Source: a bacterium
GTDB lineage: Bacteria; Chloroflexota; Chloroflexia; Chloroflexales; Kallotenuaceae
NCBI GenBank assembly: GCA_016781505.1
Contig: JADDQF010000039.1
Location: 1-32,771 of the forward strand
Direction of reading: 5' to 3'
DNA length: 32,771 nucleotides
The notes below the pieces were generated by a model. It made no database searches, was not told the DNA's origin, and worked only from the letters and a program-made list of their open reading frames with translations. This document shows positions 1,176 to 30,391 of the stretch, piece after piece. Made by a program: the position numbers and the translations under genes. Every line of letters begins with the position of its first letter. Position 1 is the first letter of the stretch.

Positions 1176-2357
1176 CTAGCCAAGGTTCTCGAAGATACCG
1201 GCCGCGCCCATACCACCGCCGACACACATCGTGACCAGGCCATACCGACCGTTGCGCCGCTTGAGCTCGTTCAGCAGTGTAACCGTGAGCTTGGCGCCCG
1301 AGCAGCCGAGTGGGTGGCCGAGCGCGATTGCACCGCCGTTGACGTTGACCTTGTCCATGTCGAGCTCAAGCTGCTGCGCAACCGCGAGGGACTGTGCCGC
1401 AAAGGCTTCGTTGAGCTCGATCAGGTCGATATCTTCGAGCGACAAGCCAGCCAGCTTGAGCGCCTTGGGAATCGCCGCTACCGGACCAATCCCCATCACT
1501 TCAGGCGGGACGCCGCCAACCGCATAGCAGACGAAGCGGGCCAGCGGCTTGAGGCCCAGCGCCTCGGCTTTTTCACGGCTCATCACCACCACCGCGGCCG
1601 CACCATCGCTGGTCGGAGATGAATTGCCGGCCGTGACCGACCCGCCAACCGCAAAGACCGGCTTGAGCTTGGCCAGGGTCTCCGCGGATGTATCGCGTCG
1701 CACACCCTCATCCAGGTCAAAGCTAAAGCGCTCGGTCTGCGGCTTGCCAGCATGGCCCACCGCGGTCCGCTCCACCTGCACGGACGTGACTTCATCCCGA
1801 AACTTGCCGCCGTCGATCGCCGCGGCGGCGTTTTGATGTGAGCGCAGCGCAAACGCATCCTGCTCCTCACGCCCGATGCCGTACTGCCGGGCTACGTTTT
1901 CAGCGGTCAATCCCATACCGATATACACTTCCGGATTGATCTCGGCTAAATGGGGGTTGGGCGCGTACACATGGCCGCTCATCGGCACCATGCTCATGCT
2001 CTCGGTGCCACCCGCCACCAGTACATCGCCCATACCCGCCATGATTTGCTGGGCCGCCAGCGCAATCGTTTGCAAGCCCGACGAACAGAAGCGATTAACC
2101 GTCTGCCCGGGCACCGTATGCGGCAGGCCAGCCCGAATCGCGGCGATCCGCGCCACGTTGAGGCCTTGCTCGGCCTCGGGCATGGCGCAGCCCAGGATCA
2201 CATCCTCGATCTCGCCGACATCCAGCCCCTGCGCGCGCTCCACGGCCGCCTTCACCGCCACCGCCGCCAGATCATCCGGCCGCACCGTCCGTAAGCTTCC
2301 TTTATGCGCCCGGCCCACCGCCGTCCGCGCGCCACTCACAATCACTGCTTCTCGCAT
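1176..2357 (-). CDS. fadA: Acetyl-CoA acyltransferase (thiolase)
   Basis: A 393-residue thiolase, the normal family length. The nucleophilic Cys91 lies in VNRFCSSG, His348 in [10 protein letters not shown], and the second active-site Cys378 in MCVGGGMG; all three are at standard positions. The enzyme cleaves 3-ketoacyl-CoA with CoA to acetyl-CoA and a shortened acyl-CoA; the reverse condensation is also possible for the family. It lies downstream of fadN and an acyl-CoA dehydrogenase on the same strand, an arrangement like the Bacillus fadNAE set, which supports a beta-oxidation role. No clear Shine-Dalgarno site precedes ATG 2357, and its immediate leader is made of heptamer repeats. A biosynthetic acetoacetyl-CoA role cannot be excluded from sequence alone. 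Confidence 0.93.
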
Positions 2358-2371
2358 GTTAAGTACCCAAG

Positions 2372-2413
2372 CTGTAAGCTATCAGTCGTCAGCGTTCAGC
2401 CTTCAGCTGTTCG
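2372..2413. repeat. Heptanucleotide repeat tract A1 (about 6 units)
   Basis: Six consecutive 7-nt units on the plus strand: CTGTAAG, CTATCAG, TCGTCAG, CGTTCAG, CCTTCAG, CTGTTCG. They are degenerate forms of the CCGTCAG/CTGTCAG family found again at 2482-2586 and 28762-28817. The tract lies 15 nt upstream of the fadA start codon, inside its presumed untranslated leader. Confidence 0.75.
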
Positions 2414-2446
2414 TACTGAATATTATTGGCAACTAATAGCTGAGCA

Positions 2447-2472
2447 CTAATCCCGTAACGTTTCACCGGTCT
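2447..2472 (-). repeat. Degenerate copy of the last 26 nt of fadN
   Basis: The 26 bases match 2687-2712, the end of fadN, at 23 positions without gaps. Read on the minus strand the copy encodes TGETLRD then a stop, where fadN encodes TGKPLRN then a stop. The copy lies about 240 nt downstream of the true stop, and heptamer tracts fill most of the space between. This suggests a duplication of the gene end followed by divergence, or the remnant of a second fadN-like gene. Confidence 0.6.
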
Positions 2473-2481
2473 CATCTTCGG

Positions 2482-2586
2482 CCGTCAGTCGTCAGCTGGT
2501 AGCCGTCAGCCTTCAGCCGTTAGCCGTCAGTCGTCAGCTGGTAGCCGTCAGTCGTCAGCTGTCAGCTGTTAGCCGTCAGGTGACAG
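2482..2586. repeat. Heptanucleotide repeat tract A2 (15 units)
   Basis: Fifteen uninterrupted 7-nt units on the plus strand. The dominant unit is CCGTCAG, with TCGTCAG, CTGTCAG, CTGGTAG, CCGTTAG, CCTTCAG, CTGTTAG and GTGACAG as variants. A four-unit block (CCGTCAG, TCGTCAG, CTGGTAG, CCGTCAG) occurs twice, at 2482 and 2524, which suggests growth by block duplication. The period is not a multiple of three and no conserved frame runs through it, so it is non-coding. It sits in the fadN-fadA gap; apart from the repeats and the fadN-end copy, I see nothing else in that 329-nt gap. Confidence 0.9.
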
Positions 2587-2617
2587 CCTTTGGTTGCCAG
2601 TTTGAAGTACGCCTACC

Positions 2618-2686
2618 TGATTGCTGATTACTGATTGCTGATTGCTGATTACTGATTACTGATTGCTGATTGCTGATTGCTGATTG

Positions 2687-2687
<1 letters not shown>
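2618..2687. repeat. Heptanucleotide repeat tract B (10 units) touching the fadN stop codon
   Basis: Ten perfect-period units of TGATTGC (7 copies) or TGATTAC (3 copies) on the plus strand. In the sense of the fadN message they read GCAATCA or GTAATCA. The first unit, in mRNA direction, begins with the last base of the fadN TAG stop codon, so the tract starts exactly where coding ends. Compare the tract at 28748, which begins in the same way at another gene's stop. Confidence 0.92.
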
Positions 2688-5107
<2,420 letters not shown>

Positions 5108-5147
5108 GCAGTGCTCCTTTGCACACAACAAGCGCACACAGGTACCG

Positions 5148-26992: not shown

Positions 26993-28225
26993 ATGTACCA
27001 GACGCGGATCATCTTTCCGACTTGGGCCAAAGTCGCCACCGTTGCAATCGTGATTGTGCTATCGATCCTGCTGCTGCGGACTGTGGGCGGTTTACTCAAT
27101 CCGTTTATCTGGGCGATCATCACCGCCTATCTGTTCAACCCCCTGGTAACGGCGTTGCACAACCGGACGCGCATCGGCCGGCTCTGGTGGGTATTGCTGT
27201 TGTACGTGATCGCTGGATTTACGCTGTACCTGGCAGTCAATACCTTGGTGCCGCGCTTAGCCACGCAGTATGGCGAGCTCGTACAAGCGCTGCCCAACTT
27301 TGCCACACGTGTCGAAGAATGGCTCGCCAACAACGGCACCATCACGCTTGGCGGCACGACATTTGATCTCCGGCCGGGCGAGGTGGAGATCGAGAATTTT
27401 TTTGCCGAAATTGGCCGTGAGCTGCCCGCCACAGTGCCGGAGCTGGTGTTCGGCGTATTTGAGCGGATCGTGCTGCTGCTGGTTTATATTGTGGTCACGT
27501 TTTATCTGCTGCTGCAGGCAGAAAGCATCACCGAAAGCATCTATAGCCTGGTACCTGCACCCCAGCGCGCGGAAATCCGGGAGCTTGGCCGTTCGATTGA
27601 CCGGGTCCTGGGCGCGTACATTCGCAGTCAGCTGGTACTGATCGCAATCATGGCAGTGCTGACCTATATTCCGCTCTCGATCCTGGGCGTCCAATACGCG
27701 CTGGTGCTGGCCATTGCAACCGGCTTTTTGGAGATTATTCCGTTTGTCGGGCCATGGACTGCCGCCAGCTCGGCGATGCTCGTGGCGCTGCTCCAATCGA
27801 CGAATACGTTCGGCTGGCACAGCGGCGTGCTGGCGCTGGTCGTCGGCGCGATTTATACCATTTTGCGGCAGGCGGAAGACCATCTGATCATTCCAAATTT
27901 GGTTGGGCGGATCGTTAAGCTGCATCCCGTGATTGTGATCTTTTCGATCTTGGCCGGCGCGGCGATCGGCGGAGCACTGGGACTGCTGATGGCCGTGCCC
28001 ATCGCGGCGACGATCAAGATTATTCTGGCCTATCTGTACTCCAAGCTGGTGGATTCGCCCACGCCGTTGGAAGCCGTGAATGCCCAAGAGCACCACATGT
28101 TGGACGATCCGCCCGCGCCGGTTGCTGCACCCCGCGGCCACGGCGATTTAACCGAGCAGCTCAGCGCTCCACCTAAAGCACCACAGCAGCGTCCAGGATC
28201 AGCGGATGGACATTCGTCAAGCTAG
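26993..28225 (+). CDS. AI-2E family transporter (PF01594-type permease)
   Basis: A 410-residue polytopic protein with about eight hydrophobic segments. It has the AI-2E family pattern: NPFIWAIITAYLFNPLV near the start, a soluble loop, the sequence IRSQLVLIAIMAVLTYIPL, and the typical LEIIPFVGPWTAASSAML and IPNLVGRIVKLHPVIVIFSILAGAAIGGALGLLMAVPIAA. The family includes the TqsA quorum-signal exporter and Na+/H+ antiporters, so the substrate is open. The last 60 residues are Pro- and Ala-rich and probably cytoplasmic. AAGG lies 6-7 nt before the ATG. Its 3' end overlaps the GNAT gene by 20 nt, suggesting coupled translation; a link with the min genes is positional only. Confidence 0.88.
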   Translation: MYQTRIIFPTWAKVATVAIVIVLSILLLRTVGGLLNPFIWAIITAYLFNPLVTALHNRTRIGRLWWVLLLYVIAGFTLYLAVNTLVPRLATQYGELVQALPNFATRVEEWLANNGTITLGGTTFDLRPGEVEIENFFAEIGRELPATVPELVFGVFERIVLLLVYIVVTFYLLLQAESITESIYSLVPAPQRAEIRELGRSIDRVLGAYIRSQLVLIAIMAVLTYIPLSILGVQYALVLAIATGFLEIIPFVGPWTAASSAMLVALLQSTNTFGWHSGVLALVVGAIYTILRQAEDHLIIPNLVGRIVKLHPVIVIFSILAGAAIGGALGLLMAVPIAATIKIILAYLYSKLVDSPTPLEAVNAQEHHMLDDPPAPVAAPRGHGDLTEQLSAPPKAPQQRPGSADGHSSS

Positions 28226-28748
28226 TCCGGATGATCTTGAACGGTGCCAGGCACTGTCACCACGCGTCCGGAACACACATGTTTGGCAATTGCGCCTGGT
28301 CCATGATCCGATGACGCCCCAGGCAACCGACGAGCTCGGCGGCACACTCCACCGTTCACGCTTGCCGCGCTCGATTGTGGTCGGCCCGGCCAGCGGCGAG
28401 TCGCTCCAAGACCTATGGTCGCGGGCGGCTGATGTTCTGGTTGCCGAAGATGGGCCAGATGTTGTGGGGTATGTGATCCTGAACGCCAGCGAACACGGGC
28501 CGCAGGTGGAGATTGCGCGGCTGGTTGTTGCGCCAGCCGCCCGGCAAAACCGCGTCGGCAGCCGGATGCTGAGCGCGGCCGCGCAGTGGGGGATGGCCTA
28601 TCAGCGCCCAACGCTTGTCGGGCATTGCTCAACCCGCAACGACGTGGCCGCGCGCTTTTATCAGCGGTGGGGCTTTCGCTTTGCCGGATACAGTGAAGCT
28701 TTTTATCCCCGCGGCGAGATCGCGCTCTTTTTTTACCGAGCGCTATAG
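28206..28748 (+). CDS. GNAT-family N-acetyltransferase
   Basis: A 180-residue protein. The C-terminal half has the GNAT core: a beta-4 strand VEIARLVVAPAAR and the acetyl-CoA pyrophosphate loop QNRVGSRML (R/Q-x-x-G-x pattern), then NDVAARFYQRWGFRFAGYSEAF, the usual motif B. The N-terminus reads IRQASPDDLERC, also typical. The acceptor (small molecule or protein) is unknown. ATG 28206 lies inside the end of the AI-2E gene and is preceded by AGGA 7 nt upstream. The stop codon runs straight into a heptamer repeat tract. Confidence 0.85.
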   Translation: MDIRQASPDDLERCQALSPRVRNTHVWQLRLVHDPMTPQATDELGGTLHRSRLPRSIVVGPASGESLQDLWSRAADVLVAEDGPDVVGYVILNASEHGPQVEIARLVVAPAARQNRVGSRMLSAAAQWGMAYQRPTLVGHCSTRNDVAARFYQRWGFRFAGYSEAFYPRGEIALFFYRAL

Positions 28749-28817
28749 GCAACAGGCAACAGCTGTCAGCCGTCAGCCGTCAGCTGTCAGGTTTCAGCTG
28801 TCAGCCGTCAGCCGTCA
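28748..28817. repeat. Heptanucleotide repeat tract C (10 units) touching the GNAT stop codon
   Basis: Ten 7-nt units in mRNA sense: GGCAACA twice, then GCTGTCA, GCCGTCA, GCCGTCA, GCTGTCA, GGTTTCA, GCTGTCA, GCCGTCA, GCCGTCA. The first unit begins with the last base of the TAG stop, as in tract B. The tract fills most of the 98-nt gap between the convergent GNAT and guaA genes. Confidence 0.92.
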
Positions 28818-28846
28818 GCTTAGGAACTAGCACCCATGTCTGGGGA

Positions 28847-30391
28847 CTATTCCCACTCGATCGTGGCCGGCGGCTTCGATGTGATGTCATACACAACGCG
28901 GTTAACGCCCTGCACTTCATTCACGATCCGGTTGGCCGCGCGCTGCAGCAGCTCGGCCGGCAGCTTAGCCCAATCGGCCGTCATAAAATCTTCGGTGGTT
29001 ACGGCCCGCAGGGCGATCGCCTCCGCATAGGTGCGGTAGTCGCCCATCACACCGACGCTCTGCACCGGCAGCAGCACCGCAAACGCTTGTTGCACATCGC
29101 GGTACAGCCCGAACCGCTGCAGCTCCTGCTGAAAGATTGCGTCGGCGCGGCGTAACGTTTCGGCGCGCTCGTGCGTCACAGGGCCAAGGATTCGGACGGC
29201 CAGGCCCGGACCGGGGAAGGGATGGCGCCAAACCCACGCTTCGGGTAAGCCCAGCTCCAGGCCGACTGCGCGCACCTCATCCTTGAACAAATAGCGCAGT
29301 GGCTCGACCAGCTGCAGCTGCATATCCGCGGGCAGGCCACCTACATTATGATGCGTTTTGATCTTGGCGGCGACATTGCGATCCGCTGCCGTACTCTCGA
29401 TCACATCGGGATATAGCGTGCCCTGGGCTAAAAACTGCACATTGCCGAGCGCTTGAGCTTCCCGCTCAAAGATGCGGACGAATTTTTCCCCAATGATCTT
29501 GCGTTTCGCTTCCGGATCGGCCACTCCTTCGAGCGCATCCAAGAAATCTTCAGCGGCATTCACGGCCACCAGCGGAATATGCAGGTGGTTGCGGAAAGTC
29601 TCGATCACCTGCTCGGCCTCACCCAGCCGCAACAGCCCGGTATCCACAAAAATACAGGTCAGCTGCTCGCCCACCGCCTTGCCGATCAGCGCCGCCGCCA
29701 CGGCCGAGTCGACTCCGCCGCTGAGGCCGCAGATTACTCGGCCAGCCCCAACCTGAGCCCGAATACGCGCGATCGCCTGCTCAGCAATTGCCTCAGGCGT
29801 CCAGCCACCAACGCAGCCACACACCCGATACGCAAAATTACGAATCAGCTCGCGGCCGTGCGCCGTATGCACCACCTCGGGATGGAACTGGAGGCCGTAC
29901 CAGCGCCGCTGTTCATCGCCCATCGCGGCGTAGGGTGAGTTGGGCGAGTGCGCGATGGGCTGAAAGCCACTGGGCAAGCGCGTCAGCTTATCGCCGTGAC
30001 TCATCCAGACCCGTTGCTGCAGACCCAGGGCGGCGAACAACGGCGACTCCGGATGCGCCACCGTGATATCCGCCGGGCCATATTCGCGCTCCGTTGATGC
30101 TTCCACGCTGCCGTCAAGCGCGTGCGCCATGGCCTGCATACCGTAACAAATCCCCAGCACCGGCAAGTCGCCATTCCGAACCCAGGTTGGCAGCTGGGGC
30201 GCGCCGGGAGCATACACACTTGCGGGTCCACCGGACAGCACGACGCCTTTGGGCTGAAGGGCGGCAGCCTGCGTCCCATCGGCATGAAACGGCAGGAGTT
30301 CGCTATACACACCAGCCTCGCGCAGCCGCCGCACAATCAACTGGCTATACTGCGAGCCAAAATCAAGCACAATAATCGCTTCATCGGGCAT
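28847..30391 (-). CDS. guaA: GMP synthase (glutamine-hydrolysing)
   Basis: A 514-residue two-domain enzyme of normal length. The class I glutamine amidotransferase has Cys82 in [12 protein letters not shown] and His170 and Glu172 in [10 protein letters not shown]. The ATP pyrophosphatase has the PP-loop SGGVDS at 224-229. The C-terminal dimerisation domain ends [17 protein letters not shown], the highly conserved GuaA terminus. It aminates XMP to GMP. GGTGA lies 6 nt before ATG 30391. A promoter is visible at 30440-30468. It is convergent with the GNAT gene and stands alone. Confidence 0.97.

Follow-up and report, generated by a model that had tools for sequence, protein, structure and literature searches.

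Tandem heptamers placed at gene ends have been described in Xanthomonas and Nostoc. The GGGAATC and GGGGA(C/T)T units form G-quadruplexes, occur preferentially in groups of four and lie between aligned open reading frames (ORFs), with the sense strand just after or overlapping a stop codon and the antisense strand just before a start codon (PMC4692102). GTAG-tagged REPs repeat a single palindrome of 20-40 bp that carries a GTAG tag (PMC3733652, PMC3116915). In E. coli, earlier work, as summarized in a later article, reported that REPs lying at most 15 nt from a stop codon slow termination (PMC12306157), and in Beggiatoaceae TAACTGA direct repeats lie upstream of start codons (PMC4679880). Here we analysed a window of 32,771 nucleotides from a 4.18 Mb Chloroflexota genome (G000), in which two genes end on heptamer tracts, and followed these tracts through the genome and its relatives.

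Results

Two stop codons in the window stand in register with heptad arrays

The relevant features of the window are the following.

1176..2357, minus strand: thiolase gene, downstream of fadN and co-directional with it (ORF and Pfam)
2383..2406, plus strand: outer part of tract A, 25 nt from the thiolase start codon (array call)
2486..2586, plus strand: main part of tract A, opposite-strand heptads, the 3' arm facing tract B (repeat and array calls)
2617..2689, minus strand: tract B, (TAGCAAT)(CAGYAAT)n, the 5' arm, whose unit 1 holds the fadN stop codon (repeat and array calls)
2687..5137, minus strand: fadN-type gene, 3-hydroxyacyl-CoA dehydrogenase/enoyl-CoA hydratase (ORF; Pfam 3HCDH_N, 3HCDH, ECH_1)
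28206..28748, plus strand: GNAT acetyltransferase gene, stop TAG at 28746-28748 (ORF and Pfam)
28746..28818, plus strand: heptad array starting at the GNAT stop, of single type, without an opposite arm, in a convergent gap
28847..30391, minus strand: guaA (GMP synthase), convergent neighbour of the GNAT gene (ORF and Pfam)

At both fadN and GNAT ends, the stop codon is the heptamer with one base changed, TAG for CAG, in register with the units that follow. The 3' end of fadN reads ...GGAATTAG, its stop occupying window 2689-2687. Since the minus strand runs on after the terminal TTAG as CAATCAGCAATCAG..., continuing the heptads, the stop is heptad 1 with T replacing C. The unbroken minus-strand tract is TAGCAAT CAGCAAT CAGCAAT CAGCAAT CAGTAAT..., with the register TAG-CAAT-CAG-CAAT..., at a tandem repeat of period 7 called at 2617-2692. 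Likewise, the GNAT ORF ends ...CTATAG, its TAG at 28746 being followed by GCAACAGGCAACAG...; with the stop as unit 1, the units are TAGGCAA CAGGCAA CAGCTGT CAGCCGT..., in the register TAG-GCAA-CAG-GCAA.... A preliminary description had reported that stop and tract share one base at 2680-2690. The overlap is real and its coordinates are right, but the shared bases are AG or the whole TAG rather than one base. Reading the sequence confirmed the same arrangement, also claimed there, at the GNAT stop (28746-28748).

The 329-nt fadN-thiolase gap, with a predicted fold z of -5.4, holds a single large element, of which tract B (2617-2689) forms one arm and tract A (2383-2586) the other. The value for the GNAT-guaA gap is -2.4, and one further convergent gap in our sample carries the same single-array type. 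A search of window 2300-2760 against Rfam 15 returned nothing above the gathering score (best E 0.38, chance matches), and the fadN-thiolase gap, the one gap scanned for an intrinsic terminator, has no U tract after the hairpin. The nearest named relatives of the window fadN are in Herpetosiphon and Caldilineaceae.

Arrays in G000 tend to be in register with TAG stop codons

The pattern TCAGNNNTCAGNNNTCAG for CAG-heptad arrays gave 117 matches in G000 and 0 in the backward control. Genes were called with a hexamer model in a 1.07 Mb sample (26% of G000), made up of regions around pattern matches and 19 contigs chosen irrespective of matches. We assessed register in the 41 genes with an array of at least three CAG-heptad units beginning at most 50 nt from the stop. 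Twelve of 22 TAG stops were in register with the array, where 1/7, or 3.1, would be expected (P=1.1e-5), and leaving out both window loci the count was 10/20. The suspicion that the two loci are more than coincidence is thereby borne out. Among the same 41 genes, no register excess was seen for TAA (2/14) or TGA (0/5).

Distances from the stop codon pointed the same way. Arrays of at least four units lay at a distance (d) of zero in 6 of 26 cases and within 17 nt in 23 of 26. When arrays were slid within their own gaps, by comparison, 6.9 fell within 17 nt and 0.39 at d=0, with a maximum of 4 in 5000 trials. The peak at zero that the preliminary description had predicted against moved positions is thus found in the 1.07 Mb sample. 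The zero-distance class consists of TAG stops only, which indicates that the sequence AG, and not position alone, matters. The terminal unit is xAG (x = T, A or G) in 82 of 110 arrays, so that an array usually begins at AG. In the d=0 cases observed, the bases after the TAG agree with the array class. The base before the terminal TAG at stops is A in five cases, T in three and G in one; before other terminal xAG units it is A in 22, T in 19, G in 17 and C in 15. The unselected contigs alone showed no stop-lag-7 register excess, as expected if the register belongs to array-bearing genes only; in these contigs, recurrence at 7, 14 and 21 nt is present in gaps and absent from coding sequence.

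Most arrays form inverted pairs between co-directional genes

Most arrays belong to inverted pairs with the layout stop-(AGNNNNC)n-loop-(GNNNNCT)n-start. Co-directional gaps hold 57 of 65 arrays, and the elements, themselves mostly 60-100 bp, fill gaps of ~60-110 nt between such genes; convergent gaps can carry one array without the opposite arm. Wherever a gap holds both arms with three or more units, the order is CAG then CTG, and the reverse was never seen. Four heptads is the commonest arm length (18/41 5' arms and 21/41 3' arms), and the base after CAG, which places an arm in the G or C class, is common to both arms in 37 of 41 elements (37:4). The loops are usually shorter than 35 nt and unrelated in sequence between elements.

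Folding predictions place the elements far ahead of shuffled sequences: the mean fold z is -4.6 for gaps with an element, whereas comparable co-directional gaps lacking heptads average -0.8. In the outer alignment, cross-arm pairing of the middle two bases of the heptads falls below 99.8% of class-matched shuffles. Such poor pairing interrupts the stem at regular intervals, and we therefore make no claim that perfect pairing is under selection. Perfect pairing covariation at all unit positions was ruled out, the middle two bases being anti-complementary.

Eight start-side arrays touch or overlap a start codon. At L110:10531-10553, L116:10140-10189 and L128:2126-2160 (CCTGATG, CTGATATG and CCTGTATG, respectively), the 3' arm runs into the next start codon and so leaves no space for an upstream ribosome-binding site. 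Separately, a 7-unit CAGCCGT array lies within a predicted gene (L106:8737-8781); this heptad is free of stops in all sense frames, and ribosomes could read through it.

Heptads differ between relatives

The inverted-pair pattern CAGGNNNCAGG...CCTGNNNCCTG was found in 23 of 60 relatives, with backward controls at zero except in one genome, and is rare elsewhere in the phylum. G043, an order-level relative from another family, has AGGGGAC as its unit. A search there, with a pattern that did not admit C or, likewise, TAA/TGA at the array edge, gave seven arrays within 60 nt of a stop, six of them at d=0 on TAG. The same TAG register was seen repeatedly at G043 loci chosen by the inverted-pair pattern alone. 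With stop distances peaking at zero in both G000 and this distant relative, the earlier proposal that the repeats are tied to gene ends holds. At L225:4545-4644 of G043, the TAG stops of two convergent genes are the outer units of one AGGGGAC hairpin.

G001 and G003, which belong to the same genus as G000, build their arrays from a different heptamer, AAGAACN; a search there for AAAGAAC arrays locking to TAA gave no signal, with too few cases. The L120 locus has C-class heptads in G000 and G-class heptads in G002, in each on both arms. In several orthologous gaps, the relatives have either plain, unrelated hairpins or arrays built of other heptamers. Among the same-genus genomes, GAGGGRC, CTAGCCC, GAACAAA and GAACCNA were noted in such gaps (L321 and L332 in G002; L324, L323, L331 and L334 in G001/G003). 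The mean fold z of orthologous gaps is -5.9 in G001, -1.9 in G003 and -1.1 in G002, not every gap being a good hairpin.

Origin of the stop codons and of the arrays

The preliminary description had also allowed for a stop codon supplied by the repeats, which would mean that an array spread into the gene end and one of its units, mutated from C to T, became the new TAG. That TAG is one base from the units' CAG, that the bases after it match the array class and that GTAG-REP termini are reported to often give flanking ORFs TAG stops (PMC3733652) all speak for such an origin. Yet the relatives found, array-less genomes included, share both stop position and C-terminal residues with fadN, GNAT and eight further d=0 genes, and several of them already have TAG. 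Across the order, the fadN C-terminus, GKPLRN*, ends at an identical position, and its TAG is already present in G003 and G005, array-less genomes of the same genus and the same family. The GNAT TAG position is kept in G002. In the other eight genes the stop has not moved in any relative found, one of two compared G002 orthologues having one added residue. Conservation of the stop position refutes stop supply at the ten loci compared and indicates that the arrays attached to existing stops; we regard supply of stops by arrays as highly improbable. A change of the codon itself from TAA or TGA to TAG is possible at a few loci.

Insertion of REP/REPIN-like mobile miniature elements by a tyrosine (RAYT) transposase preferring TAG-containing sites would fit palindromic, intergenic elements of about 100 bp that lie close to stops with TAG at the edge, and G000 has two Y1_Tnp matches, one of them sub-cut-off and RAYT-like by eye. 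Neither match (L314, L315), however, has an array within about 1.5 kb; the loops are unrelated, the arms consist of heptads in tandem and do not copy one common sequence, the unit varies between species, the terminal TAG lacks a conserved preceding G, and median gap length is alike with elements (97) and without (96). We therefore consider such insertion unlikely. A neutral origin is also fairly unlikely: the arrays would be slippage products tolerated only in spacers and without hairpin function, their inverted arms arising mutationally by template switching. The lineage-specific abundance (117 matches in G000 vs 3 in G003) and the non-complementary middle bases of the heptads agree with this, as does the heptamer excess that is a general bacterial feature (PMC4692102). 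It accords less well with the class matching of the arms, with the strict CAG-then-CTG order wherever both arms occur, and with the recurrence of hairpins of other origin in some of the same gaps of relatives.

Discussion

The architecture and position of the elements, their TAG-specific register and predicted folding, their turnover between lineages and the prior presence of the stop at the compared loci are best explained, in our estimate with a probability of roughly 0.55, by gap-filling intercistronic hairpins of slippage-prone heptads that nucleated on, or grew to, an AG already in place, the one in TAG included. Replication slippage between AG dinucleotides at a spacing of seven bases would give rise to the arrays and lengthen them, and growth into the gene would be blocked by coding sequence; because of this block, the AG of TAG would be the outermost usable one and would often join unit 1. 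In this view, an element reaches from the stop to just before the next start and could be transcribed as a long imperfect hairpin. Once retained, the hairpin may act post-transcriptionally at the gene junction, by protecting mRNA 3' ends or slowing termination. Judging from position, folding and analogy with stop-close REPs (PMC12306157), such an action is probable. The earlier reading is thus partly supported in a refined form: the spike is TAG-specific, the tract makes up one half of an inverted pair, and the other arms lie near start codons.

More tentatively, the elements might represent a class of intercistronic hairpins that extends across the order and whose defining traits are heptad periodicity and position, not sequence. 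If so, units (CAGGYWW, CAGCYRT, AAGAACN, AGGGGAC) would swap between species while spacing, inverted layout and stop register at TAG genes persist, and translation termination and the hairpin base would have nucleotides in common. The case shows how a class of repeats can hold on to its period and its place although the sequence itself changes. It also offers a concrete link, open to testing, between slippage, stop-codon microhomology and the formation of intercistronic hairpins. For annotation, a repeat adjoining a stop need not have made that stop.

Among known systems, abundant intergenic heptamer arrays are shared with the TAACTGA repeats of Beggiatoaceae (PMC4679880), but the latter are direct repeats and lie upstream of starts. 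The (GATAGRA)n satellites of Chloroflexus aurantiacus are also heptamers and come from the same phylum, but have another unit, and the portion of PMC6749651 drawn on here does not describe inverted pairs or stop association. With GTAG-REPs, BIMEs and REPINs the elements share being intergenic palindromes 3' of genes, between co-directional or convergent ORFs, with termini reported to give TAG (PMC3733652, PMC3116915). Unlike GTAG-REPs, they have tandem-heptad arms of varying sequence, no GTAG tag and a size of mostly 60-100 bp; family membership fails on the tag, no G being conserved before TAG, and on copy structure. The base of the heptad hairpin, 0-17 nt after the stop, resembles that of the stop-close E. 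coli REPs, as described in PMC12306157. The arrays are like those of Xanthomonas and Nostoc (PMC4692102) in being heptamers, most commonly of four units, between aligned ORFs, after the stop or before the start. They differ in lacking tracts of G3-4, since the CAGSNNN units of G000 have as a rule at most GG, with no four G-tracts for a quadruplex, whereas the GGGGACA units of G043 have such tracts and would qualify. They differ further in that arrays of both strands stand in one gap as an inverted pair, and in the TAG-specific register, a stop register not being reported in the portion of PMC4692102 drawn on here. Close precedents are thus already published, both for stop-proximal four-unit heptamers, in Xanthomonas and Nostoc (PMC4692102), and for TAG stops supplied by GTAG-REPs (PMC3733652).
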